Assembly (NCBI GenBank): GCA_015066015.1
Contig: SVPE01000004.1
Location: forward strand, 62,001 to 126,000
DNA: 64,000 nucleotides
Direction: 5' to 3'
From: Oscillospiraceae bacterium
GTDB taxonomy: Bacteria > Bacillota > Clostridia > Oscillospirales > Acutalibacteraceae
The notes under the pieces were generated by a model. That model saw only the letters and a program-made list of their open reading frames with translations, was not told the DNA's origin and ran no database searches. Made by a program: the position numbers and the translations under genes. Below are positions 4,157 through 30,838 of the stretch, in pieces. Every line of letters starts with the position of its first letter. Position 1 is the first letter of the stretch.

Positions 4157-4974
4157 TGAAAGAAAAAATAAGACTTGATGTCGCGCTGTTTGAAAGAGGC
4201 TTTGTTGACAGCCGTGAAAAAGGAAAGGCATTGATTATGGCGGGCCTTGTCTATATAAACGGCAACAAGGAAACCAAGGCGGGCGCATCGGTAAAGCCTG
4301 AGGACTGTATTGAACTCAGAGGCGAAAAAATGCCTTTTGTAAGCCGCGGAGGCTATAAGCTGAAAAAAGCTGTTGACGAATTCGGCTTAAAGCTTGATGG
4401 CAGTGTGTGTATGGATATCGGTGCTTCAACGGGCGGCTTTACAGACTGCATGCTTCAGAACGGTGCGACAAAGGTATATTCTATTGATGTAGGTTACGGT
4501 CAGCTTGCCTGGAAACTCAGACAGGATGAACGCGTTATCAATATGGAGCGTACTAATTTCCGATATGTGACTCATGATGATATACCCGAGGAGATTGATT
4601 TTGCAAGTGTCGATGTTTCATTTATTTCTCTTAAGCTTATTATTCCTGTTATGAGACAGCTTCTTAAGCAAGGTGGCAAGGCGGTTTGTCTTATTAAGCC
4701 GCAGTTTGAAGCAGGTAAGGAAAAAATAGGAAAAAAAGGCGTTGTAAGAGATATTTCAGTACACGAGGAAGTTGTCGGAATGATATTTGACTTTGCGCTC
4801 GAACAGGGCTTTTCCGTGCTTAATCTTGATTTCTCACCGATTAAAGGACCTCAGGGAAATATCGAATATCTTATTTTTCTTGAAAAAAGTGAAGAGCCCG
4901 TTTCTTTGCTTACGGCAACACCTTCAAAGATTGTTGCTGCATCTCATGAAACACTGGACGGCGGTGATAAGTAA
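4156..4974 (+). CDS. tlyA: TlyA-family rRNA 2'-O-methyltransferase
   Basis: An S4 RNA-binding domain (about residues 1-65: [20 protein letters not shown]) is followed by an FtsJ-like methyltransferase domain with the SAM loop [13 protein letters not shown]. TlyA proteins methylate rRNA ribose 2'-OH groups; some family members are also described as hemolysins. The length of 272 aa is normal. It is coupled to dxs by TAATG and to nadK by another one-base overlap. This position between dxs and nadK is the usual one in clostridia and bacilli. Confidence 0.93.
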
Positions 4975-5852
4975 TGACGGTTTCATTGTATGTGAACCTC
5001 ACTAGAAAAAATGCCTACAAGGTTGCACTCGATGTTATAAAAGAGCTTGAAAAGCTCAGTATCAATATATTAATGCCCGAAGAATTCAAAGACGAGTTCA
5101 ATTTTGCAAATGTTGATTTTGTACCGTCTAATGATTTTATCAGACAGTCGGAGCTTCTTATTTCAATCGGCGGTGACGGCACGATAATACATTCGGCACA
5201 CAGAGCCGCAGCTTATGACAAGCCTATTCTCGGTATAAATGCCGGAAGACTCGGGTTCCTTGCCGGACTTGAAAAAGAAGAACTCTACCTTCTTAAAGCT
5301 CTTAAGGAAAATGCATATACTGTTGATAGCAGAATGATGCTTTCCGTAAAGCATTATGAGGGTGACAGATTTGTGAAAGAGTACATATGTCTCAATGATG
5401 TTGTTGTCGCAAGGGGAAATTCCCTCAGACTATGTGACGTTGAGGTTTGTAACGGTGACAGACTGGTTTTTGATTATCAGGCGGACGGCATTATTATATC
5501 TACACCTACCGGTTCAACGGCTTATTCGCTTTCGGCGGGCGGACCTGTTGTGGATACCTCGATTGAAAGCCTGATACTTACACCAATATGCAACCACTCA
5601 TTATTCTCACGCTCTATGATTTTCAGACCGGATTCTGTATTAAGGCTGAGGGTAAGCAATTATGCCAATAGCCTTCCTATTTTCAGCTGTGACGGTGAAA
5701 GAGGAATTCAGATGACTGAAAAGTCTTCTGTTACTGTTGCGCGCAGTGAAAAATATGCGAAGATAATAAGGATAAAAGGGGACAGCTTTGCTGATATACT
5801 TTCCCATAAATTAATTGAGCGTTACGTTCGTGAAAAAGGAGAAAAAGAATGA
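4974..5852 (+). CDS. nadK: NAD kinase
   Basis: ATP- or polyphosphate-dependent kinase that makes NADP from NAD. The glycine-rich GGDGT motif is at residues 66-70, followed by [11 protein letters not shown] and then the NDVVVARG and [15 protein letters not shown] substrate-binding segments. The length of 292 aa is normal. It overlaps argR by 4 bases (ATGA) and sits in the conserved tlyA-nadK-argR-recN order. Confidence 0.96.
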
Positions 5853-11072: not shown

Positions 11073-11101
11073 TTGACAAACACTTTTTTTGGTGCTAAAA
11101 T
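11073..11101 (+). promoter_or_regulatory. Promoter of the Leu T-box operon
   Basis: TTGACA at 11073-11078 and TAAAAT at 11096-11101 with a 17-base spacer, just upstream of the T-box leader. It is a near-consensus sigma-A promoter, so control is expected mainly by antitermination in the leader. Confidence 0.8.
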
Positions 11102-11109
11102 GTGTATCA

Positions 11110-11380
11110 ATATTTAGTAAATGCGTTGACGAAATTATGATTTGTCTGTCGTGCTTTCAGAGAGTCGGTGGTAGGTGTAAACCGACACACAATGACATAT
11201 CAGTCTCATTTCCGAGCAGGATTGCTGAAGGCACAGGCTGAGTAGGTAATCACGGATGCCCCGTTATCATGGCTAAAGACTTGTCGGAGTCTTGAAGTGA
11301 CTGCTTATGCAGTAAACAAGGTGGTACCGCGGATTTATTCGTCCTTGAAATTACGGTGTAGTTTCAGGGGCGTTTTTTTT
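11110..11380 (+). promoter_or_regulatory. T-box leader, apparent leucine (CTC) specifier
   Basis: The leader fills most of the 396-base gap between upp and the LeuA-like gene. Stem I apex GAGAGTCGGTGG pairs with ACCGAC. The segment after the specifier loop, ATTTCCGAGCAG, has the usual spacing, which places the specifier CTC (Leu) at 11205-11207. The T-box core AAGGTGGTACCGCGG is at 11318-11332. The terminator CGTCCTTGAAA (11340-11350) pairs with TTTCAGGGGCG (11362-11372), followed by eight T residues. Uncharged tRNA-Leu should stabilise the antiterminator and allow readthrough. The T-box call is firm; the specifier was placed by eye from spacing to the conserved GAG. Confidence 0.93.
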
Positions 11381-11422
11381 AATGCTTTACCGAATAAAAT
11401 TTCATTAAAGGAGTCAGTTGAT

Positions 11423-12811
11423 ATGAAAAAGATTTCTGTTGCAGACATTACACTTAAAAAGCTCTCGGAGGACAGAGCAGTTTCCTTGCTTTTCCGTGAA
11501 AAGGCGGCAATAGCAAACTGCGCCGATTCAATAGGAGCTGATATTATAGAGCTTCCTGCTGTAAAGTCTGTCCGTGAGGATACGATTATATATAAAACCA
11601 TCGCAAAGAATGTTAAGAAAGCAGCTCTTGCGATTCCTGTCGGATTTGCCGCAGAAGATGTTGCAACCGCCTGGGAATGCATCAGAGATGCAAAAAATCC
11701 CTGTCTTCAGGTTGAGCTTCCCGTTTCTACACTTCAGATGGAGTATACATATCATTTGAAGCAGGAAAAAATGCTCGGAAAAATTATTGAGCTTGTAAAG
11801 GCTGCTAAAGAGCTTTGTGATAATGTTGAATTCTCGGCGCTTGATGCTACAAGAGCGGATATTGATTTTCTTGTTTTGGCAGCAAACGAGGCTGTAGCTA
11901 ACGGCGCAAATGTTATTACTGTATGTGATAATGCCGGTGCATCAACTCCTGATGAAATTGCCGGAATTGTTGCAAAGCTTAAGGAAAGCATCTGTGTTCC
12001 TGTTTATGTTCAGGTGTCTGACCGTATCAGTATGGCAGTTGCATCTGCTTTTTCTTCAATTGCTAACGGTGCTGACGGACTTAAGTGTGCAATGGCAGGT
12101 AAAGATGTGCTTCTCGCCGGTGAAATCTCTGACGCTATGAGAGCGTGTGCTGCTCAGATCAAGGCTGAAATCAATCTTGACAGTACTAAAATTCATGCTA
12201 ACATTGACGATATTGTTTCAGGTATCAAGGATGGAGATTATGAACAGGATAACTCAGTAAACAGTGATAAAAACATTCTTCTCGATTCCGATACTACCCT
12301 TGCTCAGGTTACTCAGGCTGCAGCCGTTTTGGGCTACGAGCTTTCTGATTCAGATATCGGTAATGTATATAAGGCTCTCAGGCGCGTATGCGACAGAAAG
12401 GGATCTGTCGGTGCCAAGGAGTTCGAGGCTCTTATAGCAAGCTTTGCTATGCAGGCTCCCTCTACCTATCATTTTGAAACCTATACAACAACAAGCAGTA
12501 ATGTTTCAAATGCAATGTCTCAGGTTACACTTAAATGTAATAATGAGATTATACGCGGCGTAAGCTACGGTGACGGTCCCATTGATTCCGCCTTCCGTGC
12601 TATTGAGCAGTGTATCGGCCATCACTATGAGCTTGACGATTTCCAGATCCAGGCAGTTACAGAGGGTAAGGAGGCACTCGGCTCTGCCCTTGTAAAGCTT
12701 CGCAACAACGGCAAACTTTATTCCGGTAACGGAACTTCCACAGACATTGTTTCAGCAAGCATCAGAGCATACATCAATGCTCTTAATAAGATTGTATTCG
12801 AGGAGGCATAA
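11423..12811 (+). CDS. LeuA-like protein lacking isopropylmalate synthase catalytic residues
   Basis: A 462 aa homolog of 2-isopropylmalate synthase with a TIM-barrel region (about 1-280), a linker subdomain and a C-terminal LeuA allosteric domain (about 345-455, with GDGPIDSAFRAIE, KEALGSALVKL and NGTSTDIVSASIRAYINALN). The catalytic signature is gone. Where active enzymes have DTTLRDGEQ, this has DITLKKLSE, so the Arg-Asp pair is K12-K13. Where they have the metal-binding HxH, the ungapped match gives Q197 and S199. The NGxGERAGN loop reads AMAGKDVLLAGE. The leucine-binding domain looks intact, so a leucine-sensing or scaffold role is plausible (inference). The ATG at 11423 follows AAAGGAG; the longer frame from 11297 runs through the T-box and is rejected. 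It is the first gene of the Leu T-box operon. Confidence 0.85.
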   Translation: MKKISVADITLKKLSEDRAVSLLFREKAAIANCADSIGADIIELPAVKSVREDTIIYKTIAKNVKKAALAIPVGFAAEDVATAWECIRDAKNPCLQVELPVSTLQMEYTYHLKQEKMLGKIIELVKAAKELCDNVEFSALDATRADIDFLVLAANEAVANGANVITVCDNAGASTPDEIAGIVAKLKESICVPVYVQVSDRISMAVASAFSSIANGADGLKCAMAGKDVLLAGEISDAMRACAAQIKAEINLDSTKIHANIDDIVSGIKDGDYEQDNSVNSDKNILLDSDTTLAQVTQAAAVLGYELSDSDIGNVYKALRRVCDRKGSVGAKEFEALIASFAMQAPSTYHFETYTTTSSNVSNAMSQVTLKCNNEIIRGVSYGDGPIDSAFRAIEQCIGHHYELDDFQIQAVTEGKEALGSALVKLRNNGKLYSGNGTSTDIVSASIRAYINALNKIVFEEA

Positions 12812-12812
12812 T

Positions 12813-15272
12813 ATGAAAATTGTATTTTCAACAAAGAATGTAAGCCGTGCTTCTTTTCTTGATTTATGCCGTTATGCCTATGATTACGGCTTTGAAGGAT
12901 TTGAAATTTATGATGCGATCAAGGAGAGAAACGGACATTACGACAGCCTTCTCAGACAAGACCGTGTAGCAGATGCAAAAAGAAAACTTGTAAACAGAAA
13001 TCTTTCCGTTCCTGCTCTTCGTATGCCTAAGCCTGTCGAAAACGAGGAAACAACTGCCGAGCTTATTAGCAAATATGTATCTATGGCGGCTGCTTCAGGT
13101 GTTGAAAATGTCATTTTGCGCATTGAAGAAAAGTCAGATTACGATCTGCTTGATGAAAAGCTTATTGATGCAATAGGATACGCTGAAACAGTTGATGTAA
13201 ATGTTTTGTTTGAAACTGTCGGCTATCTCGCTAATACAGAAAACGTAATTGATATTATCAATCACTTTGCCTCGTCTGTTATCGGTGCTTCATGGAATGT
13301 AAGAGGAACATATTTTGATGCGGGTGAAACAGCTGAAACAACGATTAAAAACCTTGGTGCATATATCAAGTATGTGCGTTTGGGCGATATGAAGGATGGC
13401 AAGACAGTTCTTATCGGTGAGGGTGATCTTGATGTTGAAAAACTCATCAATGCGCTTTCTTCACTTAATTACGAGGGCTTTATTTGTGCAGCGTGGAACG
13501 AGGAAATCAGTGACGCTGATATTGTTCTTACCCATTTCACAAATTATATTTCAGCATTGAACCGTGATGAAAAATCTTTTGATCATGCTTACTATAACCG
13601 CGATAAGACGGGGACTTTTGTCTGGAAGAAGTATGATGTTATTGAAAAGACATTCTCAGATGTTCTTGACACAATGGCGGAAACCTATCCCGACCAGTAT
13701 GCATTCAAATATCCTACACTTGACTACACAAGAACTTATGAGCAGTTCCGCCGTGATGTTGATGAGTGCGCTGCAGCTCTTATTTCACTTGGTGTAAAAG
13801 CGGGTGATCACGTTGCCGTCTGGGCAACAAACGTTCCTCAGTGGTTTATAACTTTCTGGGCAACTACAAAAATCGGCGCAGTTCTTGTTACAGTAAATAC
13901 TGCTTATAAAATTCACGAAATAGAATACCTTTTAAAGCAGTCCGATACACATACTCTTGTTATGATTGAAGATTGCAAAGATATCAACTACAAGGAAATT
14001 ATTGAAGAACTTTGTCCTGAGCTTAAGAGCCTTATACCCGGTTCTCCTCTTTATTCAAAGAATCTTCCTTTCCTTCGCAATGTTGTAACTGTAGGCTTCA
14101 CAATGGACGGATGTCTTACATGGGAGCAGATGCTTTCACGCTCCGTGCTTATTCCCCGTGAAGAAGTGCGCAGACGTGCATCTCTTGTAAAACCTGACGA
14201 TGTTTGTAATATGCAGTACACATCAGGTACAACAGGATTCCCGAAGGGTGTTATGCTTACACACAGAAACATTGTCAATAACGGTAAAACAATCGGTGAC
14301 AGAATGGATCTTTCTACTGCTGATCGCATGATGATTCAGGTGCCGATGTTCCATTGCTTCGGTATGGTACTTTCAATGACATCGATGATGACTCACGGTG
14401 GTACACTTTGTCCAATTCCTTATTTCTCACCCAAGTCATCTCTTGCCTGCGTTAATGATGAGAGAATCACTTGCTTTAACGGTGTTCCTACAATGTTTAT
14501 CGCAATGTTCAACCATCCCGACTTTGCAAAAACCGATTTCTCATATATGAGAACAGGTATTATGGCAGGTGCAAACTGTCCTGCAGACCTTATGAGACGC
14601 GCATCTGTCGAAATGAATATGCGTGAGATTATTTCGGTTTACGGTCAGACAGAGGCTTCACCCGGCTGTACAATGGGCGAGGTTAACGAAGACCTTGATC
14701 ACCGTGTTGAAACTGTCGGCAGTGCTTTCCCCGGTGTTGAGTGCAAAATTATCGATCCCGAAACCGGAGATGAGCTTCCTGACGGTGAAAGCGGAGAATT
14801 TGTAGCACGTGGCTTCAATATTATGAAAGGCTACTACAAAATGCCCGAAGCAACTGCTCAGGCAATTGATTCTGACGGTTGGCTTCATTCGGGTGATATC
14901 TGTATGAGAACTTCTGACGGATATTATAAGGTTACAGGCCGACTTAAGGATATGATTATCCGCGGAGGTGAAAACCTCTATCCACGTGAGATTGAGGAGT
15001 TCTATCTTACAAATCCCAAGGTGCGCGATGTTCAGGTAGTAGGTGTTCCTGACGAAAGATACGGTGAAGAATGCTGCGCATGGATTATTCTTCATAAGGG
15101 CGAAATATCCGACGAAAACGAAATGAAGGAATTCGGCAATGCTTCAATCGCAAGACATAAGGTACCAAGATATTTTATGTTTGTCGATGAGTTTCCGATG
15201 AATGCTGCAGGTAAGATCCTCAAATACAAGATGAGAGATATATCTGCTGAAAAATTAGGTTTAAAAAAATAA
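12813..15272 (+). CDS. TIM-barrel (sugar isomerase-like) / acyl-CoA ligase fusion
   Basis: An 819 aa two-domain protein. Residues 1 to about 260 resemble the xylose isomerase-like/AP endonuclease 2 TIM barrel (GFEGFEIYD, VLFETVG with Glu134, IGEGDLDVEKLI). Several usual metal ligands look replaced: N162 and G165 in WNVRGT for Asp and His, R189 for a His, A227 for the last-strand Glu. Residues from about 285 form a complete ANL-superfamily acyl-CoA ligase with YTSGTTGFPKG (469-479), VYGQTEASPG, HSGDI, GRLKDMIIRGGENLYP and the catalytic Lys801 in AAGKILK. It should activate a carboxylic acid to an acyl-CoA using ATP. The ATG at 12813 is one base after the LeuA-like stop, with AGGAGG just upstream. 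Substrate is inferred to be a branched-chain acid from T-box context only. Confidence 0.85.
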   Translation: MKIVFSTKNVSRASFLDLCRYAYDYGFEGFEIYDAIKERNGHYDSLLRQDRVADAKRKLVNRNLSVPALRMPKPVENEETTAELISKYVSMAAASGVENVILRIEEKSDYDLLDEKLIDAIGYAETVDVNVLFETVGYLANTENVIDIINHFASSVIGASWNVRGTYFDAGETAETTIKNLGAYIKYVRLGDMKDGKTVLIGEGDLDVEKLINALSSLNYEGFICAAWNEEISDADIVLTHFTNYISALNRDEKSFDHAYYNRDKTGTFVWKKYDVIEKTFSDVLDTMAETYPDQYAFKYPTLDYTRTYEQFRRDVDECAAALISLGVKAGDHVAVWATNVPQWFITFWATTKIGAVLVTVNTAYKIHEIEYLLKQSDTHTLVMIEDCKDINYKEIIEELCPELKSLIPGSPLYSKNLPFLRNVVTVGFTMDGCLTWEQMLSRSVLIPREEVRRRASLVKPDDVCNMQYTSGTTGFPKGVMLTHRNIVNNGKTIGDRMDLSTADRMMIQVPMFHCFGMVLSMTSMMTHGGTLCPIPYFSPKSSLACVNDERITCFNGVPTMFIAMFNHPDFAKTDFSYMRTGIMAGANCPADLMRRASVEMNMREIISVYGQTEASPGCTMGEVNEDLDHRVETVGSAFPGVECKIIDPETGDELPDGESGEFVARGFNIMKGYYKMPEATAQAIDSDGWLHSGDICMRTSDGYYKVTGRLKDMIIRGGENLYPREIEEFYLTNPKVRDVQVVGVPDERYGEECCAWIILHKGEISDENEMKEFGNASIARHKVPRYFMFVDEFPMNAAGKILKYKMRDISAEKLGLKK

Positions 15273-15299
15273 TTCAGGCTTTTGAAAGGCATACTCTCA

Positions 15300-16115
15300 A
15301 TGAAAGAATATAGAATAATTGACTGTCACTGTCATATCTATCCCGAGAAAATTACCCAAAAAGCCGTCGCGGGAATAGAAAGCTTTTACGATCACCGTTA
15401 CCGCGGGTTTGACGGTACAATTGCCACTATGCTTCAAAACGGAGAAAAATCGGGTGTAAACCGCTATGTGATTTTTTCTGTTGCGACTTCACCTCGTCAG
15501 GTTTCTTCGATTAATCGCTTCATTGCTGAAAATGTCAGGAACAATGAAGATCTGTTTATCGGTCTCGGTACTCTTCATCCCGATTCTGATAATCTTGAAA
15601 AAGATTTTGAAGAGCTGATTTCGCTCGGACTTAAGGGTGTAAAGCTTCACCCTGATATTCAGCAGGTTGCAATCGATGATGAGCGTGCAAAGAAAATTTA
15701 CGCCTTATGCTCCGGAAGGGTTCCTGTTCTTCTTCATACAGGTGACTACAGATACGATTATTCCAATCCCGACAGGATGAGACGTGTTATTGAAGAATTT
15801 TCTGACTGCACATTTATCGGCGCACATTTCGGTGGCTGGTCTGTATGGGATGAGGCTGCAGAAAAGCTCAGCGGTTATCCGAATTTCTATGTTGACACCT
15901 CGTCAACCTTTTGTGACATTTCCGCGGAAAAGGTAAGCGGGCTTATAGATAAATACACTGCCGATAAAGTTCTCTTTGGTACGGATTATCCGTTGGGGGA
16001 TTGCGGCAAGGAAATAGCCCTTCTTGAAAAAGCTGTCGATAGTCAGGTAAGCCTGAAAAAAATCCTTTACGGAAACGCTGCAAAAATTTTCGGACTTACC
16101 GATAAATTTATTTGA
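15300..16115 (+). CDS. Amidohydrolase-family metal-dependent hydrolase
   Basis: A 271 aa amidohydrolase-2-type TIM barrel. The first-strand metal motif IIDCHCHIYPEK has the HxH pair, GVKLHPD and VLLHTGDY contribute the next ligands, FIGAHFGGW gives the second His, and VLFGTDYPLG carries the strand-8 Asp. Relatives include decarboxylases and lactone or amide hydrolases; the reaction is not predictable here. There is no signal peptide. The ATG at 15300 with AAAGG upstream is preferred over a TTG at 15282. It follows the fusion gene by 27 bases with no terminator between them, so it is probably the third gene of the Leu T-box operon. Confidence 0.82.
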   Translation: MKEYRIIDCHCHIYPEKITQKAVAGIESFYDHRYRGFDGTIATMLQNGEKSGVNRYVIFSVATSPRQVSSINRFIAENVRNNEDLFIGLGTLHPDSDNLEKDFEELISLGLKGVKLHPDIQQVAIDDERAKKIYALCSGRVPVLLHTGDYRYDYSNPDRMRRVIEEFSDCTFIGAHFGGWSVWDEAAEKLSGYPNFYVDTSSTFCDISAEKVSGLIDKYTADKVLFGTDYPLGDCGKEIALLEKAVDSQVSLKKILYGNAAKIFGLTDKFI

Positions 16116-16123
16116 AAAAACTA

Positions 16124-16152
16124 TTGACATAGTATTGTTATAGTGATATAAT
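16124..16152 (+). promoter_or_regulatory. Promoter of the Ile T-box gene
   Basis: Consensus TTGACA at 16124-16129 and TATAAT at 16147-16152 with a 17-base spacer, immediately before the second T-box leader and 8 bases after the amidohydrolase stop codon. Confidence 0.85.
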
Positions 16153-16174
16153 TTCATACAAATTAAATATAAAA

Positions 16175-16435
16175 GCTGTGACGAAGACGGACGATTCCGA
16201 GTTTTACAGAGAGCTGACGGTGGTGCAAGTCAGTAAACAGAGTATCAGGTCCCATCACTTCTGAGCTGAAGGTCCGAAAATTCATATGAATCAGTAGATG
16301 CCTTCCGTGACTACTGCGTTAATGTATAGAGCTTGTTGGAGCTTGAAGGTGGCGGATTTATCCGCAATTTGAGTGGTACCGCGGGTTACTTGTAAGTATC
16401 TCGTCTCAAAGTTTTTCTTTGAGACGAGTTTTTTT
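16175..16435 (+). promoter_or_regulatory. T-box leader, apparent isoleucine (ATC) specifier
   Basis: The leader fills the 355-base gap before the HTH-cupin-ligase gene. Stem I apex GAGAGCTGACGGTGG pairs with GTCAG. The ACTTCTGAGCTG segment after the specifier loop places the specifier ATC (Ile) at 16254-16256 by the same spacing rule used for the first T-box. A GCGGATTTATCCGC hairpin (stem III) comes before the core GAGTGGTACCGCGGG (16371-16385). The terminator CTCGTCTCAAAG (16400-16411) pairs perfectly with CTTTGAGACGAG (16417-16428), followed by seven T residues. Expression should rise when tRNA-Ile is uncharged. Specifier assignment is by eye. Confidence 0.93.
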
Positions 16436-16470
16436 ATTTTAAAAATTATCAGGAAAGGTCTGAGAAAACA

Positions 16471-18735
16471 ATGGAAAATTTGAACAAACGCCTGAAGGAT
16501 GTTGCTTCACGAATAAAGGAAATGCGTGAAATTGCCGGCTACACCGAAGCAGAAATGGCTGAAAAAACGGATACTACCGTTGAAGAGTATCTTGAGTATG
16601 AAAAAGGTGAGGCTGATTTCCCGTTTACATTTATTCATAAGTGCGCAAAAGCTTTTTCAATAGGAATGACAGACCTTCTCGAAGGTAAGAGTGCACGTCT
16701 TTCTTCCTATACCGTTACAAGAAAGGGTATGGGTAAAATCACCTCAAAAAAGGTCGGTATTGAGATAAATAATCTTGCACCTCTTTTCCGCCACAAGCTT
16801 GCTGAGCCTTATCTTGCAAAGTATGAGTATAAGCCTGAGCTTCAGGATGCTCCTATTGAAACAACTACCCACAGCGGTCAGGAATTTGACCTCGTTCTTT
16901 CCGGTAAGCTCAAGGTAAGAGTAGGCGACAATACCGAAATTCTTTCCGAAGGCGACAGCATTTATTATAAGAGCTCAATGCCTCACGGTATGATTGCTGT
17001 TGATGGTGAGGATTGCACCTTCCTTGCAGTTGTTGTTGCAGGTGACGATACAGGTGATGCCGCTGTTGAAAAGGCTTTTCACTCTGCAGTGAAATCCGAA
17101 TACAACCTTGTGGTTAAGAAATTCATCGAAACCGTAGAGGATGAAAACGGTGTTCTCAAGGATATTTCCTTTAAAAACGAGGATAAATTCAACTTTGCCT
17201 TTGATGTCGTAGATGCTGTTGCGGAAAAGCAGCCCGATAAGCTTGCTCTTCTTCATATTTCACGCGATAAGACGGAAAGACGCTTCACCTACAATGATAT
17301 CAAGAAAGAGTCTGCCCGTGCTGCTAACTATTTCAAGAGTCTCGGAATTACCAAGGGTGATAAAGTAATGCTTGTTCTCAAGCGTCACTATCAGTTCTGG
17401 ATTTGTGCTCTTGCACTTCATAAGCTTGGAGCGGTTATGATCCCTGCAACAAATCAGCTTGTTGAGCACGATTTTGAATACCGCTTCAAGGCAGCAGGAG
17501 TAAAGGCAATCCTCTGTACTGCAGACGGTGACACCTCCGATCACGTTGACAAGGCGGCAGCAAGCTACGGTGAGCTTGAATGCAAGATTATGGTCAACGG
17601 AGAGAAGGAAGGCTGGCGTTGCTTCGATACCGAATATAAGCTCTTCAGAAGCATATTTGAAAGACAGCCCGACAGTGCTTGCGGTGACGATCCTGTTCTT
17701 ATGTTCTTCACATCGGGTACAACAGGTTATCCCAAAATTGCATCACACTCCTGTAAATATGCACTCGGACATTTTGTTACGGCAAAGTATTGGCACGCTG
17801 TTGAGCCTACAGATCTCCACCTTACAATTTCCGATACCGGTTGGGGTAAGGCTCTTTGGGGTAAGTTCTACGGTCAGTGGATGTGTGAAGCTTCTGTGTT
17901 CGCTTACGATTTTGACCGCTTTGACGCATCGGATATTCTTCCTATGTTCGCTAAATATAACATCACAACCTTCTGTGCGCCTCCCACAATGTACAGAATG
18001 CTTATAAAGGAAGACCTTTCAAAGTTTGATCTTTCGACAATCAGATATGCCACAACTGCCGGTGAAGCTCTCAACCCCGAGGTTTACTTCCAGTTTGAAA
18101 AGGCAACCGGTCTTTCAATTATGGAGGGCTTCGGTCAGACAGAAACTACCCTTACAATTGCAAACCTTGTCGGCACAAAGAATAAGGTAGGCGCAATGGG
18201 CAAGCCTGTACCCGGTTATGACATTGTAATTGTTGACCCTGACGGAAATCCCTGTCCCGTAGGTGAAACCGGTGAAATCTGCGTCAGAACCGACAAGAAG
18301 ATTCCCTGCGGACTTTTCATGGGCTATTACAGAGATGAAGAGAAGACCGAAGAGGTATGGCACGACGGTATGTACCACACCGGCGACACTGCATGGTGCG
18401 ATGAGGATGGTTATTTCTGGTATGTCAGCCGTATTGATGATGTTATCAAGTCCTCGGGCTACCGTATCGGACCCTTCGAAATAGAAAACGTTATTATGGA
18501 GCTTCCTTATGTTCTTGAGTGTGGCGTTTCTGCTGCGCCTGATGAAATAAGAGGTCAGGTCGTAAAGGCAAGCGTAGTGCTTACCAAGGGCACCGAGCCG
18601 ACCGAAGAACTCAAAAAGGAAATCCAGAACTATGTAAAGAAGAATACCGCTCCCTATAAGTATCCGAGAATCGTTGTTTTCAGAGACGAGCTTCCGAAAA
18701 CAATCAGCGGTAAGATTCAGAGAAACAAATTGTAA
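16471..18735 (+). CDS. HTH-cupin-acyl-CoA ligase fusion protein
   Basis: A 754 aa protein with three parts. Residues about 10-65 form an XRE-type helix-turn-helix (IKEMREIAGYTEAEMAEKTD). Residues about 125-195 form a cupin (THSGQEFDLVLSGKLKV, GDSIYYKSSMPHG). From about 245 there is a complete acyl-CoA ligase of the acetyl/medium-chain type with FTSGTTGYPK (413-422), GFGQTETT, YHTGD, SRIDDVIKSSGYRIGPFE and the catalytic Lys748 in ISGKIQRNKL. The HTH-cupin pair is usual in transcription regulators that bind a small ligand. Here it may let the enzyme's acid or CoA product control DNA binding or activity (inference). It is the only gene between the Ile T-box and the next promoter at 18765. Confidence 0.9.
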   Translation: MENLNKRLKDVASRIKEMREIAGYTEAEMAEKTDTTVEEYLEYEKGEADFPFTFIHKCAKAFSIGMTDLLEGKSARLSSYTVTRKGMGKITSKKVGIEINNLAPLFRHKLAEPYLAKYEYKPELQDAPIETTTHSGQEFDLVLSGKLKVRVGDNTEILSEGDSIYYKSSMPHGMIAVDGEDCTFLAVVVAGDDTGDAAVEKAFHSAVKSEYNLVVKKFIETVEDENGVLKDISFKNEDKFNFAFDVVDAVAEKQPDKLALLHISRDKTERRFTYNDIKKESARAANYFKSLGITKGDKVMLVLKRHYQFWICALALHKLGAVMIPATNQLVEHDFEYRFKAAGVKAILCTADGDTSDHVDKAAASYGELECKIMVNGEKEGWRCFDTEYKLFRSIFERQPDSACGDDPVLMFFTSGTTGYPKIASHSCKYALGHFVTAKYWHAVEPTDLHLTISDTGWGKALWGKFYGQWMCEASVFAYDFDRFDASDILPMFAKYNITTFCAPPTMYRMLIKEDLSKFDLSTIRYATTAGEALNPEVYFQFEKATGLSIMEGFGQTETTLTIANLVGTKNKVGAMGKPVPGYDIVIVDPDGNPCPVGETGEICVRTDKKIPCGLFMGYYRDEEKTEEVWHDGMYHTGDTAWCDEDGYFWYVSRIDDVIKSSGYRIGPFEIENVIMELPYVLECGVSAAPDEIRGQVVKASVVLTKGTEPTEELKKEIQNYVKKNTAPYKYPRIVVFRDELPKTISGKIQRNKL

Positions 18736-18764
18736 TTTTTACCAAAAAAATATTTCTGAAATTG

Positions 18765-18793
18765 TTGCAAAAGTACAATATTTGTTTTATAAT
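18765..18793 (+). promoter_or_regulatory. Promoter of the ATPase-oxidoreductase-ilvE operon
   Basis: TTGCAA at 18765-18770 and TATAAT at 18788-18793 with a 17-base spacer, 35 bases before the GTG start of the ATPase gene. There is no T-box here, so this operon is either constitutive, controlled by a protein, or partly read through from the upstream gene, which has no visible terminator. Confidence 0.72.
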
Positions 18794-18828
18794 ATGCAGA
18801 TGACACTAAGAAAGAGTGGTGATATCAG

Positions 18829-19485
18829 GTGAAGCGGCTCACGCTTTTTGCAGGACATTACGGTAGCGGTAAAACTAATTTAGCAGTTAATTATGCTGTG
18901 ATGCTGAAAGAAAAAGGCTTTGATGTAATAATCGCTGATCTTGATATCGTAAACCCTTATTTCAGAACAAAGGACAGCGAAGATGAGCTTCGTGAAAAGG
19001 GTATAGAACTTATAAGCTCTAAGTTTGCAAACAGTAATCTTGACATTCCCTCAATTCCTCAGGAAATGTACCGCACCGTGCAGGATAAAAGCAAGTTTGC
19101 GGTTATGGATATCGGAGGTGACGACGCGGGGGCCATTGCTCTTGGTCGGTTTGCTCCTTATATTAAAGAGGAAGACAGTTACGATATGGTTTTTGTTGTA
19201 AACTTTTACAGACCTCTTTCCCGTAATGCTGAGGAAGCTATGCAGATTATGAGAGAAATTGAGGCGGCTTCAAAGCTTAAGTTCACATCTATTGTAAATA
19301 ATTCTAATCTCGGTGAACTTACAAGTGCCGACGATGTACTTTCAACGAGCGAAGAAATCCAGAAGCTTTCTGAGCTCTGCGGACTTCCCGTTAAGTTCAC
19401 AAGCGTGAAAGAAAGCATTTATAATCAGTTAAACAACAAGACAAAAAATCTGTTTTGCCTTGCTTTGCAAAATAAAATTTTTTAA
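18829..19485 (+). CDS. P-loop ATPase, MinD/CobQ-like
   Basis: A 218 aa ATPase of the SIMIBI (ParA/MinD/NifH-like) group. The Walker A-type loop GHYGSGKTNLA is at about residues 8-18, followed by the switch IADLDIVNPYFRT and the Walker B-like VMDIGGDDAGA. It has no membrane-targeting tail and no Cys pairs typical of Fe-S carriers. The GTG start follows a weak AAAGAGTGG site. The ferredoxin-like gene begins 14 bases after the stop, so it is in the operon with the 2-oxoacid oxidoreductase. It might help in cofactor loading or assembly of that enzyme, but nothing in the sequence proves this. Confidence 0.75.
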   Translation: MKRLTLFAGHYGSGKTNLAVNYAVMLKEKGFDVIIADLDIVNPYFRTKDSEDELREKGIELISSKFANSNLDIPSIPQEMYRTVQDKSKFAVMDIGGDDAGAIALGRFAPYIKEEDSYDMVFVVNFYRPLSRNAEEAMQIMREIEAASKLKFTSIVNNSNLGELTSADDVLSTSEEIQKLSELCGLPVKFTSVKESIYNQLNNKTKNLFCLALQNKIF

Positions 19486-19499
19486 AACGGAGGAGCGTT

Positions 19500-19706
19500 A
19501 TGGCGAAAGTAACATTCAGAACTGACTCTTGCAAGGGTTGCGGACTCTGTGTTCAGGCATGTCCGAAGCAAATTCTTGTAATAGCCAAGGAAAAAATTAA
19601 TGCTAAGGGTCATTCGCCTGCAGAAATGACTGATGAAAGCAAGTGCATAGGTTGTGCATTTTGTGCAACTATGTGCCCGGACTGTATAATCAAGGTTGAA
19701 AAGTGA
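19500..19706 (+). CDS. 2-oxoacid:ferredoxin oxidoreductase, ferredoxin-like delta subunit
   Basis: A 68 aa protein with two 4Fe-4S motifs: CKGCGLCVQACP and CIGCAFCATMCP. It is the expected delta subunit of KOR/VOR-type four-subunit 2-oxoacid:ferredoxin oxidoreductases and passes electrons between the catalytic core and soluble ferredoxin. The ATG at 19500 follows GGAGG. The alpha subunit gene begins 10 bases after its stop. Confidence 0.92.
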   Translation: MAKVTFRTDSCKGCGLCVQACPKQILVIAKEKINAKGHSPAEMTDESKCIGCAFCATMCPDCIIKVEK

Positions 19707-19716
19707 GGGTAAAAAA

Positions 19717-20781
19717 ATGGCAGACAAAGTACTCATGAAGGGTAACGAAGCGATTGCAGAGGCCGCGATTCTTGCAGGCTGCCGACATTACTTCGGTTAT
19801 CCTATTACTCCGCAGACAGAAATTGCGGCTTATATGGCAAAGAAAATGCCTAAAATTGGCGGTTGCTTCCTTCAGGCTGAAAGTGAAGTTGCTGCGATCA
19901 ATATGGTTTATGGTGTAGCCGGAACCGGTAAACGAGTTATGACATCATCTTCAAGTCCCGGAATTTCACTCAAGGCTGAAGGTCTTTCATATATGGCGGG
20001 CAGCGATCTTCCGTGCCTTGTGGTAAACGTACAACGCGGTGGCCCGGGTCTTGGCGGCATTCAGCCTTCTCAGGCAGACTACTTCCAGGCAACAAAGGGA
20101 TGCGGTCATGGCGACTACAGAATGATTGTACTTGCTCCCTCTTCCGTTCAGGAGATGGCAAGCCTTACGGTTAAGGGCTTCGATCTTGCCGATAAGTACA
20201 GAATGACTTCGATGATTCTTGCTGACGGTACACTCGGTCAGATGATGGAACCTGTGTCACTTGAAGATGCTCTTGTTAATGAATATGACAAGTCATGGGC
20301 CGTTACCGGCACTGAAATGAAGCGAAAGAAGAATCTCGTAAATTCTCTTTCGCTTGATCCCGAAGAGCTTGAGAGACTTAATTTTGCAAGATTTGAAAAG
20401 TATAAAACTATCGAAGAAAATGAAGTTATGTACGAAGAGTACATGATGGATGATGCCGAAATCTGCATCTGTGCTTTTGGTATTACTGCAAGAATTGCAA
20501 AAAATGCAATTGCAATGGCGCGTGAAAAGGGAATTAAGGCAGGTCTTATCCGTCCTATTACACTCTGGCCTTTCCCTGTAGATGTTTTTGAAAAAGCGGC
20601 CGATAAGGTAAAGGCTTTTATATGTGTTGAAATGTCAATGGGTCAGATGATCGAGGATGTCAGACTTGCAACAAAATGTAAGAAGCCCGTAACTCTTTGC
20701 AACAGAGTCGGCGGCATGATTCCTTCGCCCGAGCAGGTGCTTGAAAAAATTATTGAGGCAGACAAAGGAGGTAATGAATAA
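19717..20781 (+). CDS. 2-oxoacid:ferredoxin oxidoreductase, alpha subunit
   Basis: A 354 aa alpha subunit (pyrimidine-binding and domain II) of a KOR/VOR-type enzyme. It shows GNEAIAEAAILAGCRHYFGYP, YPITPQTEIAAYMA and AESEVAAINMVYGVAGTGKR near the N terminus, and a C-terminal VKAFICVEMSMGQMIEDV segment. The ATG at 19717 follows GAGGG; an in-frame TTG at 19696 would overlap the delta gene and is rejected. With the beta and gamma subunits it interconverts a 2-oxoacid with acyl-CoA and CO2 using ferredoxin. The next-door branched-chain aminotransferase favours branched-chain 2-oxoacids over 2-oxoglutarate as substrates (inference). Confidence 0.93.
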   Translation: MADKVLMKGNEAIAEAAILAGCRHYFGYPITPQTEIAAYMAKKMPKIGGCFLQAESEVAAINMVYGVAGTGKRVMTSSSSPGISLKAEGLSYMAGSDLPCLVVNVQRGGPGLGGIQPSQADYFQATKGCGHGDYRMIVLAPSSVQEMASLTVKGFDLADKYRMTSMILADGTLGQMMEPVSLEDALVNEYDKSWAVTGTEMKRKKNLVNSLSLDPEELERLNFARFEKYKTIEENEVMYEEYMMDDAEICICAFGITARIAKNAIAMAREKGIKAGLIRPITLWPFPVDVFEKAADKVKAFICVEMSMGQMIEDVRLATKCKKPVTLCNRVGGMIPSPEQVLEKIIEADKGGNE

Positions 20782-21539
20782 TGGTAGTATTTGATAAACC
20801 CAAGTCACTTTGTGATGTACCCTTACATTACTGTCCCGGATGTACTCACGGTATAATTCATCGCCTTGTTGCCGAAGCAATCGACGAGCTTGGCATTGAA
20901 GGAAGAACAATAGGTGTTGCTCCTGTAGGCTGCAGTGTTCTTGCATACAACTATTTCGCCTGCGATATGGTTGAGGCTGCTCACGGAAGAGCTCCTGCTG
21001 TTGCAACGGGTCTTAAACGTTCAGATCCCGAAAAGCACGTTGTATTTACTTATCAGGGTGACGGTGACCTTGCTTCGATCGGTATGGCTGAAACAGTACA
21101 TGCAGCAGCAAGAAATGAGAATATTACAGTTATCTTCGTTAATAATGCAATTTACGGTATGACCGGCGGACAGATGGCTCCTACCTCACTTCCCGGTCAG
21201 GTTACACAGACATCTCCTTACGGAAGAGACACAAATCATTGCGGTTTCCCTGTAAAGGTTTCCGAAATGCTTTCACAGCTTGATGGCGCAGGCTATATCG
21301 AAAGAGTCGCTGTCAATAATGTAAAGAACGTAAGAAATGCCAAAAAAGCAATTAAAAAGGCCTTCCAGAATCAGCTTGACGGTAAAGGCTTCTCGCTCGT
21401 TGAGGTTATTTCTACCTGTCCTACAAACTGGGGTATGACTCCCGTTGATGCACTCAAGTGGGTTGAGGAGAAGATGATTCCGTATTATCCTCTCGGTGTT
21501 TATAAGGACAGAGCTGCACAAAGCAAGGAGGAAGCATAA
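20781..21539 (+). CDS. 2-oxoacid:ferredoxin oxidoreductase, beta (TPP-binding) subunit
   Basis: A 252 aa TPP-binding subunit. It has YCPGCTHG at the N terminus, the TPP/Mg motif QGDGDLASIGMAETVHAA and the completing VIFVNNAIYGMTGGQ. Small beta subunits of this size without extra ferredoxin domains are typical of the KOR/VOR class, where the clusters sit in a separate delta subunit. The start overlaps the alpha stop by one base (TAATG), which fits equal expression of both subunits. Confidence 0.94.
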   Translation: MVVFDKPKSLCDVPLHYCPGCTHGIIHRLVAEAIDELGIEGRTIGVAPVGCSVLAYNYFACDMVEAAHGRAPAVATGLKRSDPEKHVVFTYQGDGDLASIGMAETVHAAARNENITVIFVNNAIYGMTGGQMAPTSLPGQVTQTSPYGRDTNHCGFPVKVSEMLSQLDGAGYIERVAVNNVKNVRNAKKAIKKAFQNQLDGKGFSLVEVISTCPTNWGMTPVDALKWVEEKMIPYYPLGVYKDRAAQSKEEA

Positions 21540-21540
21540 A

Positions 21541-22074
21541 ATGACAAAACAGATTTTAATTGCAGGTTTCGGCGGTCAGGGCGTTCTCTTTGCAGGAAAG
21601 CTCCTTGCTTATAAGGGACTTATCGCTGAAAAGCAGGTTTCATGGCTTCCTTCATACGGTCCTGAGATGCGTGGCGGTACTGCGAACTGCAGTGTTATTA
21701 TCAGTGATGAGCCGGTAGGTTCACCCATTATCTCAAATCCTGATGTTCTTGTTGCTATGAATCTTCCCTCACTTAAAAAATATGAGAATGAGGTTGTTTC
21801 AGGCGGTATAATCATTGTTGATTCAAGTCTTATTGCTGAGAAAGTCCAGCGTGACGATGTAACAGTATATTATGTGCCTGCTACAAAAATGGCAAAGGAT
21901 GAAGGCTTTGCTACACTTGCAAATATGATTCTTATGGGTAAGCTTATGAAGGCGGTTGATTATATCGGTTTTGACGGTGTTGACGCTGCTGTTTCAAAGG
22001 TTGTTCCTCCCAAAAAGGCAAATCTCATTGACGTAAATCTAAAAGCAATCAAATCCGGATACGATTTTGAATAA
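21541..22074 (+). CDS. 2-oxoacid:ferredoxin oxidoreductase, gamma subunit
   Basis: A 177 aa gamma subunit (CoA-binding side), with the opening pattern [19 protein letters not shown] and [19 protein letters not shown], both highly typical of KOR/VOR gamma chains. The ATG at 21541 follows AAGGAGG and is one base after the beta stop. It completes the delta-alpha-beta-gamma set encoded from 19500 to 22074. Confidence 0.94.
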
Positions 22075-22086
22075 GAGGTGTTAAAT

Positions 22087-23154
22087 ATGGAAATCAAGAT
22101 TACTAAAACTACTACTCCCAAGGCAAAGCCAAAAAAGGGTGAAAAGCTTGGCTTCGGCCACATTTTCACTGACCATATGTTTGTTATGAATTATACAGAA
22201 GGTAAGGGATGGCACGATGCAAGAATTGAGCCCTACGCTAATATTTCACTTGCTCCTTCTGCAATGGTTTTCCATTACGGTCAGGAAATGTTTGAAGGCC
22301 TCAAGGCTTATCGCGGAGAAGATGATTCAATTTATCTCTTCCGTCCCGATATGAATGCAAAGAGAGCCAACGCTTCAAATGAAAGACTCTGCATCCCTGA
22401 AATTCCAGAAGATGTTTTTGTAGATGCAATCAAGGCTCTTGTTGATATCGACAGAGACTGGGTTCCCTCCGATGAAGGCACATCACTTTATATCCGTCCC
22501 TTTGTTATTGCAACTGACGAGTTTCTCGGCGTTGCTCCTTCAAAGACATATCTCTTTATGGTAATTCTTTCACCCTCAGGTGCTTACTATGAAAGCGGAC
22601 TTGCTCCTGTAGGTATCTGGATCGAAGACGATTATGTAAGAGCTGTTAAGGGCGGTATGGGCTTTGCTAAGACCGGCGGTAACTATGCAGCTTCTCTTAT
22701 CGCTCAGGTAAAGGCTCACGATGAAGGTTATTCACAGGTGCTCTGGCTTGACGGTGTTGAAAGAAAGTATATCGAAGAAGTTGGCGCAATGAACATAATG
22801 TTCAAGATCAATGGTAAGGTAATTACTCCTGCTCTTAACGGAAGCATTCTTCCCGGTATTACACGTAACTCAATCATCAATGTATGCAAGGCATGGGGCT
22901 ATGAGGTTGAAGAAAGAAGAATTTCTGTTGATGAGCTTGTTGCAGCTGCAAAAGACGGTTCACTCGAAGAAGTTTGGGGAACTGGTACTGCAGCAGTTGT
23001 TTCACCTGTCGGCAAGCTTCGTTATATGAACGATGTAATGACAATCGGTGACGGTGGCATAGGCGAACTCACTCAGAAGCTCTATGATGAACTTACAGGC
23101 ATTCAGTGGGGTAAGAGAGAAGATCCTTACGGTTGGAGAATTCTTGTTAAATAA
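22087..23154 (+). CDS. ilvE: Branched-chain amino acid aminotransferase
   Basis: PLP fold-type IV aminotransferase exchanging amino groups between glutamate and the 2-oxoacids of Val, Leu and Ile. The PLP lysine is Lys195 in FAKTGGNYAAS, followed by LWLDGVERKYIEEVGAMNI and the phosphate-binding GSILPGITR. The length of 355 aa fits the BCAT2-like group. The ATG at 22087 with AGAGGTG upstream is preferred over a GTG at 22078 that would overlap this site. It lies 12 bases after the gamma subunit gene and ends the operon at a strong terminator. The linkage gives acyl-CoA, 2-oxoacid and amino acid in consecutive steps. Confidence 0.96.
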   Translation: MEIKITKTTTPKAKPKKGEKLGFGHIFTDHMFVMNYTEGKGWHDARIEPYANISLAPSAMVFHYGQEMFEGLKAYRGEDDSIYLFRPDMNAKRANASNERLCIPEIPEDVFVDAIKALVDIDRDWVPSDEGTSLYIRPFVIATDEFLGVAPSKTYLFMVILSPSGAYYESGLAPVGIWIEDDYVRAVKGGMGFAKTGGNYAASLIAQVKAHDEGYSQVLWLDGVERKYIEEVGAMNIMFKINGKVITPALNGSILPGITRNSIINVCKAWGYEVEERRISVDELVAAAKDGSLEEVWGTGTAAVVSPVGKLRYMNDVMTIGDGGIGELTQKLYDELTGIQWGKREDPYGWRILVK

Positions 23155-23162
23155 GAAATTAC

Positions 23163-23206
23163 AAATGGTGTATATGCAGATCAAAGTTTGTATATACACC
23201 ATTTTT
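23163..23206 (+). terminator. Terminator of the oxidoreductase-ilvE operon
   Basis: A perfect 13-bp inverted repeat (AAATGGTGTATAT at 23163-23175, ATATACACCATTT at 23192-23204) with a 16-base loop and a short T tract. The T tract directly adjoins the ARG-box-like palindrome of the next operon. Confidence 0.88.
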
Positions 23207-29302: not shown

Positions 29303-30838
29303 ATGAATACAACAATAAAAACCGTAAAACAGCTTGCACATTACGCTGCTGAAAAATATCAAAGTAAGGATTTTTGCCGTTTTTTCCGTGACAATGAAAT
29401 GGTAAAAAAAAGCTTTGATACTTTTTATAATGACAGTCTTGCTGTTTGCCGTTATATTCGAAGTGTAACCAAAGAAAAAATACATATCGGATTCATAGGA
29501 AAGACAAGCTACGAGTATATTGCTTGTCTTACAGGTATGATTTTCAGCGGAAATGTTGTTGTGCCGTTCGCTCCTGAAATAACAGTTGAGGAAGCTTGTG
29601 AGCTTTTTGATGATGCGGACATTGAGATGCTTTTCTGTGAGGAAGAATTTGAAGAAAAGGCTAAAGAAATCAAAAAATCTTATTCAGGACTTAAACAGAT
29701 AGTTTCTCTTGGAGACTGGCGTTGGTTTGAGAGAATATTTGATGTCTATTCGTCGGATTCATTTTACGCTTATCTTTCTGATATAACAGAGAAACCTGAT
29801 GAATGTTCGCTTATCATATATACGTCCGGTACGACGGGAGAAAGAAAAGGTGTTATGCTTTCCAATCATAACCTTGCGTCAAATTCCTGTTATGAGGCAT
29901 ACAGTATGGATAATGATGATATCAGCTTCTCTATTCTTCCGATGCATCACGTTTTTTGTTATGCCTGCGATGTACTTAAAACACTTTTTGACGGAGGAAC
30001 ACTTTGTCTCAACGGAGATCTTGTGCGCCTTTATATTAATATTCTTAAGTTTCAGCCGACTATTATGAGAATTGTACCGTCAATATGCAAGTCAATGCTC
30101 ACAAAAATTAAAATTGCAGAAAGAAATCATCCGGAGCTTTCAAAGCGTGAGGCTGCTGAGCTGGTAGTAGGAAAAAACTTCAGGCGTATGATAGCCGGAA
30201 GTGCATTTCTCAGCGGAACACTCATTGATGAATTTGAGAAGTACGGTATTACAGCGCGTCAGGGTTATGGTATGAGTGAGTGCAGTCCGAGAATTTCAAC
30301 CTCAGATTTTTCGGATGTGTGCAAATATTCAAACGGAAAGCTTCTTGGGACTGATGAGGTCAGGGTTTGTGACGGAGAAATCCAGGTAAAGGGTCCTTCG
30401 GTTATGCTCGGATATTATAAAAAACCTGAGAGAACGAGAGAAGCATTTACTGAAGATGGATTCTTACATACAGGTGACCTCGGCTATATTGACGGAGAGC
30501 ATATATATCTGGTAGGCAGAAAGAAAAATCTCATAATCCTGTCAAACGGTGAAAACATATCTCCCGAGGAAATCGAAAACTGTTTTATTGATGACGGTAT
30601 CGTAAAGGAGATTGTTGTGTTTGCCGAAGGAGACCGTATTATTGCTGAAATTTTCCCTGATATGCTTCTCGCGCAGTCTCTTGGCATTGATGATGTTTAT
30701 GGTGAAGTCAGTAATATTGTAGACAGAGTAAATATCAGGCTTAATTCGGACAGGCAGATTCATACTTTCAGACTCAGAGAAACTCCTTTTGCCCGTACCT
30801 CAACAGGTAAAATCAAAAGAACCGAGTTTTATTATTAA
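29303..30838 (+). CDS. AMP-dependent acyl-CoA/acyl-acid ligase
   Basis: A 511 aa ANL-superfamily enzyme with IIYTSGTTGERKGVM, GYGMSECSP, HTGDLGYIDG, GRKKNLIILSNGENISPEE and the catalytic lysine in TSTGKIKRTEF. It should adenylate a fatty or related acid and transfer it to CoA or a carrier. It is more like long-chain fatty acyl ligases than the two BCAA-region fusions, and has no extra domains. It starts after GGAGAG. A weak TTTACA/TATATT promoter may lie at 29215-29244. It lies between spoIVA and sigK, so a role in sporulation lipid metabolism is possible but unproven. Confidence 0.85.
   Translation: MNTTIKTVKQLAHYAAEKYQSKDFCRFFRDNEMVKKSFDTFYNDSLAVCRYIRSVTKEKIHIGFIGKTSYEYIACLTGMIFSGNVVVPFAPEITVEEACELFDDADIEMLFCEEEFEEKAKEIKKSYSGLKQIVSLGDWRWFERIFDVYSSDSFYAYLSDITEKPDECSLIIYTSGTTGERKGVMLSNHNLASNSCYEAYSMDNDDISFSILPMHHVFCYACDVLKTLFDGGTLCLNGDLVRLYINILKFQPTIMRIVPSICKSMLTKIKIAERNHPELSKREAAELVVGKNFRRMIAGSAFLSGTLIDEFEKYGITARQGYGMSECSPRISTSDFSDVCKYSNGKLLGTDEVRVCDGEIQVKGPSVMLGYYKKPERTREAFTEDGFLHTGDLGYIDGEHIYLVGRKKNLIILSNGENISPEEIENCFIDDGIVKEIVVFAEGDRIIAEIFPDMLLAQSLGIDDVYGEVSNIVDRVNIRLNSDRQIHTFRLRETPFARTSTGKIKRTEFYY

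Follow-up and report, generated by a model that had tools for sequence, protein, structure and literature searches.

Leucine and isoleucine T-boxes before acyl-CoA ligase operons: a candidate carboxylation route to branched-chain amino acids in a family of Clostridia

A contig of an Oscillospiraceae bacterium (Acutalibacteraceae; assembly GCA_015066015.1, contig SVPE01000004.1, positions 62,001 to 126,000, a stretch of 64,000 nucleotides that is called the window here) contains, at positions 11,073 to 23,206 of the window, two T-box leaders, one of the leucine and one of the isoleucine type, each upstream of an operon that encodes an acyl-CoA ligase. Why should the charging of tRNA-Leu and tRNA-Ile govern enzymes that activate organic acids? 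The clustered genes very probably form an assimilatory route, in which isovalerate would be converted to leucine and 2-methylbutyrate to isoleucine by reductive carboxylation under control of tRNA charge, with isobutyrate used likewise in relatives. The same conversions, of isovalerate to Leu, 2-methylbutyrate to Ile and isobutyrate to Val, are attributed to rumen bacteria in the work of Allison and co-workers (1962-1971, summarised in PMC7356843); the part of that summary devoted to them names no genes, whereas the present locus offers candidate genes, one ligase for each acid, tRNA control and a catalytically dead homologue of LeuA.

In the proposed mechanism, each branched acid would be turned into its coenzyme A (CoA) ester by a ligase of its own, isovalerate by that of the Leu operon and 2-methylbutyrate by that of the Ile operon. 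A VOR-type 2-oxoacid:ferredoxin oxidoreductase, running in reverse on reduced ferredoxin, would add CO2 to the acyl-CoA, and the resulting 2-oxoacid would be transaminated by IlvE to the amino acid. For either ligase operon, read-through at the terminator would require uncharged tRNA for the amino acid that the route produces. Some relatives have an additional ligase behind a Val T-box, which would serve isobutyrate in the same manner.

Two operons and their T-box leaders

The Leu operon and its leader consist of the following features:
11073..11101, + strand: promoter-like site of T-box 1, TTGACA-17-TAAAAT (sigma-70-like pattern, 11/12)
11117..11349, + strand: T-box leader 1, specifier CUC (Leu); RF00230, 114 bits, cut-off 93
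11340..11372, + strand: intrinsic terminator of T-box 1, a hairpin with T-run (pattern and folding)
11423..12811, + strand: catalytically dead 2-isopropylmalate synthase homologue, HMGL-like barrel and LeuA allosteric domain (domain profiles, motifs, structure, omega)
12813..15272, + strand: fusion of a TIM barrel (AP_endonuc_2, xylose-isomerase-like) and an AMP-binding acyl-CoA ligase, proposed isovalerate-CoA ligase (domain profiles, conserved linkage)
15300..16115, + strand: Amidohydro_2 family protein, third gene of the operon (domain profile)

The Ile operon follows directly in the list of features:
16124..16152, + strand: promoter-like site of T-box 2, TTGACA-17-TATAAT (sigma-70-like pattern, 12/12)
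16169..16411, + strand: T-box leader 2, specifier AUC (Ile); RF00230, 91.8 bits, 1.2 under the cut-off, E 6e-21
16400..16428, + strand: intrinsic terminator of T-box 2, a hairpin with T-run (pattern and folding)
16471..18735, + strand: fusion of helix-turn-helix (HTH), cupin and MbcS/MacsMa-like acyl-CoA ligase, proposed 2-methylbutyrate-CoA ligase (domain profiles, PDB match, tree)
18765..18793, + strand: candidate second promoter upstream of the oxidoreductase genes (pattern, 10/12)
18832..19485, + strand: P-loop NTPase, CbiA/ParA-like (domain profile; a frequent neighbour of the oxidoreductase)
19500..19706, + strand: 2-oxoacid:ferredoxin oxidoreductase delta, 4Fe-4S ferredoxin type (profiles)
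19717..20781, + strand: oxidoreductase alpha, VorB subfamily (NF005507, 555.8 bits, cut-off 399)
20781..21539, + strand: oxidoreductase beta, thiamine pyrophosphate (TPP) type (profiles)
21541..22074, + strand: oxidoreductase gamma (profiles)
22087..23154, + strand: branched-chain amino acid aminotransferase IlvE (TIGR01123, 417.6 bits, cut-off 250)

The specifier codons were read by register relative to GAGC of Stem I, and the 3' parts of both leaders fold stably (z of -3.3 for Leu and -4.2 for Ile); uncharged tRNA-Leu and tRNA-Ile would cause antitermination at the respective leader. The initial annotation of this DNA had placed a Leu-type T-box before an acyl-CoA ligase operon and an Ile-type T-box before a second acyl-CoA ligase, and the covariance scores and specifiers agree with it on both. 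It had put the oxidoreductase and ilvE directly downstream of the second ligase; they are present, but the P-loop NTPase gene lies between. The ligase that it assigned to the Leu operon is there too, but the first gene, which encodes the LeuA-like protein, had gone unmentioned, and the amidohydrolase also belongs to the operon.

Covariance search of the window returned one T-box over the cut-off, plus the Ile box below it, and no T-box of Val type. The source genome, a draft of 2.38 Mb in 42 contigs and 91% complete, has 11 T-boxes at E <= 0.001, two of them in this cluster; eight of the other nine precede tRNA ligase genes, trpB or cysE (names read from translations), and one precedes a phenylacetate-CoA ligase gene. 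Chance is a very unlikely source of the T-boxes in the cluster and was rejected, because equal specifiers recur before orthologous genes in many genomes.

The recurrence was followed through the LeuA-like protein, which is encoded at full length in 33 of 150 genomes of the same family (at least 280 bits; the next scores are 153 bits or less, and G060, where the protein is possibly split, was counted as lacking it). In all 32 relatives whose regions were fetched, the TIM-barrel ligase gene stands directly 3' of the LeuA-like gene. A T-box core is found within 500 bases upstream of the latter in 26 of the 32, and 1.3 kb upstream in L053; an unfiltered script read Leu codons in 25 of the 26 cores and left one unread, the whole set of 32 giving CTC 23, CTG 2, unread 1, no core 5 and too short 1. 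The same script misread alaS and paaK among the 11 boxes of the source genome and left trpB, pheS and aspS unread; earlier codon lists for the LeuA-like loci and the named loci were filtered to the expected codons and are weaker than the unfiltered reading. By hand count, oxidoreductase genes are present in 18 and ilvE in 16 of the 32 regions, many of which end at contig ends.

A second set consists of named loci, the best 80 of 584 candidates, in genomes that possibly overlap with the anonymous set. Within these 80, the TIM-barrel ligase starts no more than 80 bases downstream of the LeuA-like gene in 77, and the unfiltered script gave CTC 54, CTG 4, ATC 1, unread 7, no core 10, contig-cut 3 and too short 1. 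Record titles of the same 80 name a ruminant gut segment in 49 cases, reindeer in one and horse feces in two, with no habitat in 28. Thus the ligase fusions, the oxidoreductase and the T-boxes recur together in related genomes, in line with the conserved neighbourhood that the initial annotation had suggested looking for.

Two side observations concern this locus. In L230 (about 4470-4990), tandem T-box leaders, Leu (CUC) and then Ile (AUC), precede the LeuA-like gene. Pairs of LeuA-like and TIM-barrel ligase genes occur also in metagenome-assembled genomes labelled Spirochaetales (L213, L219 and L220; 3/80), which indicates either gene transfer or misbinning.

One ligase for each amino acid, and the standard pathway genes

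The HTH-cupin-ligase family shows the same correspondence between ligase and specifier. Upstream regions of 60 members contain an Ile box in 38 cases, a Val box in 18 and no box in four (seven were read by eye); this reading was unfiltered, and where several candidates were printed the in-register one was taken. Two full-length copies (at least 1000 bits) are present in 22 of the 150 genomes, and each of the 22 has a Val box before one copy and an Ile box before the other, a count that combines the upstream regions with copies inside the LeuA-like regions fetched earlier. Eight further copies, weaker or unfused, have an AUC box in four cases and no box in the other four.

The two kinds of leader are matched by two kinds of protein. 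In a protein tree of 81 ligases (identical proteins entered once), a single branch parts 55 Ile-box from 24 Val-box rows, with support of 100 in the approximate likelihood ratio test (SH-aLRT), and none of 500 shuffles came as low. The tree was built from protein sequences and labelled from the RNA upstream of the genes; the filtered script, a weaker source than the unfiltered one, supplied 61 labels, and 18 were read by eye before tree building (17 from printed leaders, and L261 from L068), two rows being unlabelled. Without the filter, the script gave ATC 54, GTA 21, GTC 1, GGC 1, TCA 1, no core 1 and too short 2 for the 81 genes. Seven positions separate the clades at the set cut-offs. Six belong to the HTH-cupin part; the only one in the ligase domain is Gly459 in 54 of 55 Ile-box ligases and Ala in 24 of 24 Val-box ligases; it aligns to Gly255 of MacsMa, four residues ahead of Trp259 of the acyl site, as the site is given in the relevant part of PMC10455477. 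The bigger side chain in the Val clade is suggestive of a fit to the smaller acid, isobutyrate.

The best PDB match of the Ile-box ligase is 3etc, MacsMa of M. acetivorans (630 bits), with homology over the full-length ligase and Trp259 aligned and kept. Its best NCBIfam model is MbcS (NF047394), at 438.1 bits below the cut-off of 850, so that the protein is an MbcS homologue that we do not class as MbcS. In the portions of the two reports that deal with specificity, MacsMa prefers 2-methylbutyrate (PMC10455477), and S. aureus MbcS selectively uses 2-methylbutyrate and isobutyrate and acts poorly on isovalerate (PMC10026030). Action of the Ile-box ligase on 2-methylbutyrate is proposed on the grounds of this homology, and a separate ligase under the Leu box fits because MbcS is poor on isovalerate. 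The Ile/Val ligases resemble MbcS and MacsMa in the homologous ligase domain and the proposed class of substrates; unlike them, they are fused to HTH and cupin domains, controlled by T-boxes, divided into Ile-box and Val-box clades, and below the MbcS cut-off.

In L167, L168, L169, L170, L172 and L173, the HTH-cupin and ligase parts are split by stop codons, like two genes, and an Ile T-box is present in two of the six; the fusion may have arisen later than the separate genes. Another AMP-binding ligase, below all model cut-offs shown, is encoded in the window at 29303-30838. For the TIM-barrel domain of the Leu ligase, searches gave no clear functional reading.

If the T-box ligases feed amino acid synthesis, what has become of the standard pathway? 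In the source genome, ilvB, ilvN, ilvC and ilvD form one operon, and each product is over an NCBIfam cut-off. No intact LeuA or citramalate synthase was found there: of the HMGL family, to which both enzymes belong, the search gave only the dead LeuA and, in two frames of 463 residues, partial matches. No LeuC was found either: the sole aconitase-family protein is a 763-residue 'hydratase' (NF008503, 1220 bits). Nor was threonine deaminase (ilvA) found, with three model matches all below a cut-off that only 5 of 14 control genomes reach; two of the three are cysteine synthases over their own cut-off and one reads as TrpB. The normal routes to Leu and Ile thus seem to be missing and that to Val present, which matches T-box ligases for exactly Leu and Ile. 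Salvage of branched-chain fatty acids had been put forward initially for all three amino acids; Leu and Ile have their ligases under T-boxes, but Val has its normal genes here, and Val boxes occur only in relatives. The two 463-residue frames (L015 and L016, contig C2), which we take to be biotin-enzyme-like, have identical partial HMGL matches and lie 4 kb apart, a recent duplication.

A comparison with normal-pathway genes, likewise suggested at the outset, gave an anticorrelation across the 150 genomes. By Fisher tests, which ignore phylogeny, ilvC is present in 6/33 carriers of the dead LeuA vs 80/117 others (p 3e-7), and in 3/22 Val-box carriers, counted among fused full-length ligases, vs 83/128 others (p 9e-6). 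At least three leuC-model matches occur in 3/33 dead-LeuA carriers vs 81/117 others (p 5e-10); fewer than three such matches served as a proxy for absence of leuC, none being over the leuC cut-off in the 150 genomes. Both anticorrelations hold in the 115 genomes that are at least 90% complete. Within the genus of the source genome, G138 is like it (dead LeuA, ilvC, one weak leuC-model match), and G003 has no dead LeuA and a leuC-size frame near ilvC.

A catalytically dead LeuA

The first protein of the Leu operon is like 2-isopropylmalate synthase LeuA in its barrel fold and its allosteric domain (PF08502, LeuA_dimer; 106.8 bits, cut-off 24.9), and unlike it in the loss of catalytic residues. 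Compared with three LeuA of the same taxonomic family that have intact motifs, all 33 orthologues lack the NGxGER loop and have other residues at both metal-binding His positions (HxH); in the DTTLRDGEQ motif, the catalytic Arg is kept in 7/33 and the first Asp in 33/33. The most conserved part is the regulatory domain, with a mean majority share of 0.74 vs 0.55 for the barrel. The median ratio of nonsynonymous to synonymous rates (omega) is 0.10 in the barrel and about 0.017 in the regulatory domain, from 11 non-independent pairs of nine loci, one regulatory synonymous rate being saturated. A decaying leuA pseudogene was rejected on these values and on the frame, which is open in 33/33. The protein is thus under strong purifying selection and, by the residues tested, catalytically dead and not an isopropylmalate synthase.

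The predicted structure (mean pLDDT 81, pTM 0.58; residues 404-437 below 50) has PDB matches to MAM synthase and isopropylmalate synthase (3ewb, 3rmj), and it is the barrel that carries them; the match to Leu-bound M. tuberculosis LeuA (3fig) has a large root-mean-square deviation. The retained domain of leucine-allosteric type suggests that the protein probably senses leucine as a partner of the isovalerate ligase. A doubtful but real possibility within the same route is that, instead of sensing leucine, it catalyses a new reaction or serves as a structural partner. In the barrel, D8 and several further residues do not vary among the 33 orthologues and omega is low as well, and the regulatory part is the poorly predicted one; however, all 33 have lost the loop and both metal-binding His, and conservation is strongest in the allosteric domain, which favours the sensor.

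The oxidoreductase, rival readings and the wider picture

Several facts weigh against the assimilatory route as proposed, beside the neglect of phylogeny and the leuC proxy mentioned above. Three dead-LeuA genomes (G056, G133 and G148) have also a leuC-size gene and ilvC, and because they hold both routes the system is not a strict replacement. Absences in the source genome are provisional, given its incompleteness. Isovalerate is proposed for the Leu-operon ligase from the T-box and pathway logic. The promoter-like site before the NTPase gene may give the oxidoreductase part basal expression, beyond T-box control alone; 34 such sites occur in the region vs 25.4 expected. Lastly, the top models of oxidoreductase beta and delta are 2-oxoglutarate ones, below cut-off, and the source genome encodes a second four-subunit VorB-like oxidoreductase (L293, contig C12; alpha 49% identical) directly 3' of another AMP-binding ligase. 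Because of this second enzyme, the branched-acid role of the first rests on linkage and subfamily score.

It is improbable, nonetheless, that the oxidoreductase of the window serves 2-oxoglutarate or another acid, with the T-box ligases feeding the second oxidoreductase or some other enzyme. The adjoining ligase of the second enzyme and the beta and delta models would speak for this; the alpha subunit exceeds the VorB subfamily cut-off and the genes are frequently linked with the ligases and ilvE, whose product is over two NCBIfam cut-offs, and both argue for a VOR-type enzyme that would be specific for branched 2-oxoacids, although beta, gamma and delta are over no NCBIfam cut-off. Two further POR_N proteins of the source genome, 1190 and 590 residues long, presumably have the sizes of pyruvate and indolepyruvate oxidoreductases.

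Still less probable is a role of the ligases in lipid synthesis, in which their branched acyl-CoA products would prime the fatty acids of the membrane and the tRNAs of branched-chain amino acids would switch the operons on, since shortage of these amino acids reduces the usual primer supply. The Ile/Val ligases are nearest to MbcS and MacsMa, and MbcS feeds fatty acid synthesis in Staphylococcus aureus, according to the part of PMC10026030 on its role. Primer supply as the main function does not fit the observations that many relatives have the ligase genes clustered with those of the oxidoreductase and ilvE, that the system is anticorrelated with leuC and ilvC, and that each amino acid has a ligase of its own; it may be a side role. 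A degradative cluster, in which ilvE, the oxidoreductase and the ligases in reverse would turn branched-chain amino acids into branched acids, is hardly credible: 2-oxoacid oxidoreductase and transaminase reactions are reversible, but AMP-forming ligases favour activation, induction by uncharged tRNA would run degradation under starvation, and the carriers mostly lack leuC and ilvC.

The assimilatory route has a partly conserved aromatic counterpart of the same logic. In the source genome (L012:621-2737, contig C2), a Phe (UUC) T-box precedes genes for a phenylacetate-CoA ligase homologue (530 bits, cut-off 646) and an ACT-type protein; by pattern, the UUC box is present in only 5 of 30 homologous phenylacetate-ligase loci examined, source genome included.

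In the sections of PMC2494555 that list them, known T-boxes of this metabolism control branched-chain amino acid synthesis (Bacillales, Clostridia) and, in two proteobacteria, leuA; here the controlled genes are acyl-CoA ligases of another route, and the terms 'acyl-CoA', 'CoA ligase' and 'oxidoreductase' are absent from the main text of that paper. Among the titles and abstract starts listed by searches of an open library (for some searches the best-ranked part of the papers), outside which lie most subscription papers and all preprints, we found no description of T-box-controlled fatty acid ligases for the synthesis of branched-chain amino acids, nor of an inactive isopropylmalate synthase beside a ligase.

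Knowledge that rumen bacteria use branched volatile fatty acids to make branched-chain amino acids dates from the 1960s. If the proposed route is true, the genes of the cluster are concrete candidates for the rumen carboxylation of branched-chain fatty acids, and the T-box specifier is a built-in label of the acid of each ligase. The system would predict which gut bacteria rely on isoacids made by others; isoacids serve as a ruminant feed additive (PMC12272956, in part). In the LeuA-like protein, the conversion of a biosynthetic enzyme into a regulator could be put to the test. On the broadest view, which we hold with belief and doubt in equal measure, a family of Clostridia would have replaced the acetolactate and isopropylmalate pathways, partly or wholly, by up to three carboxylation routes gauged by tRNA, with one ligase for each amino acid; isopropylmalate synthase, no longer catalytic, would have been kept in the carriers to sense leucine and to adjust the isovalerate ligase accordingly, and T-box specifiers would annotate ligase substrates across species.

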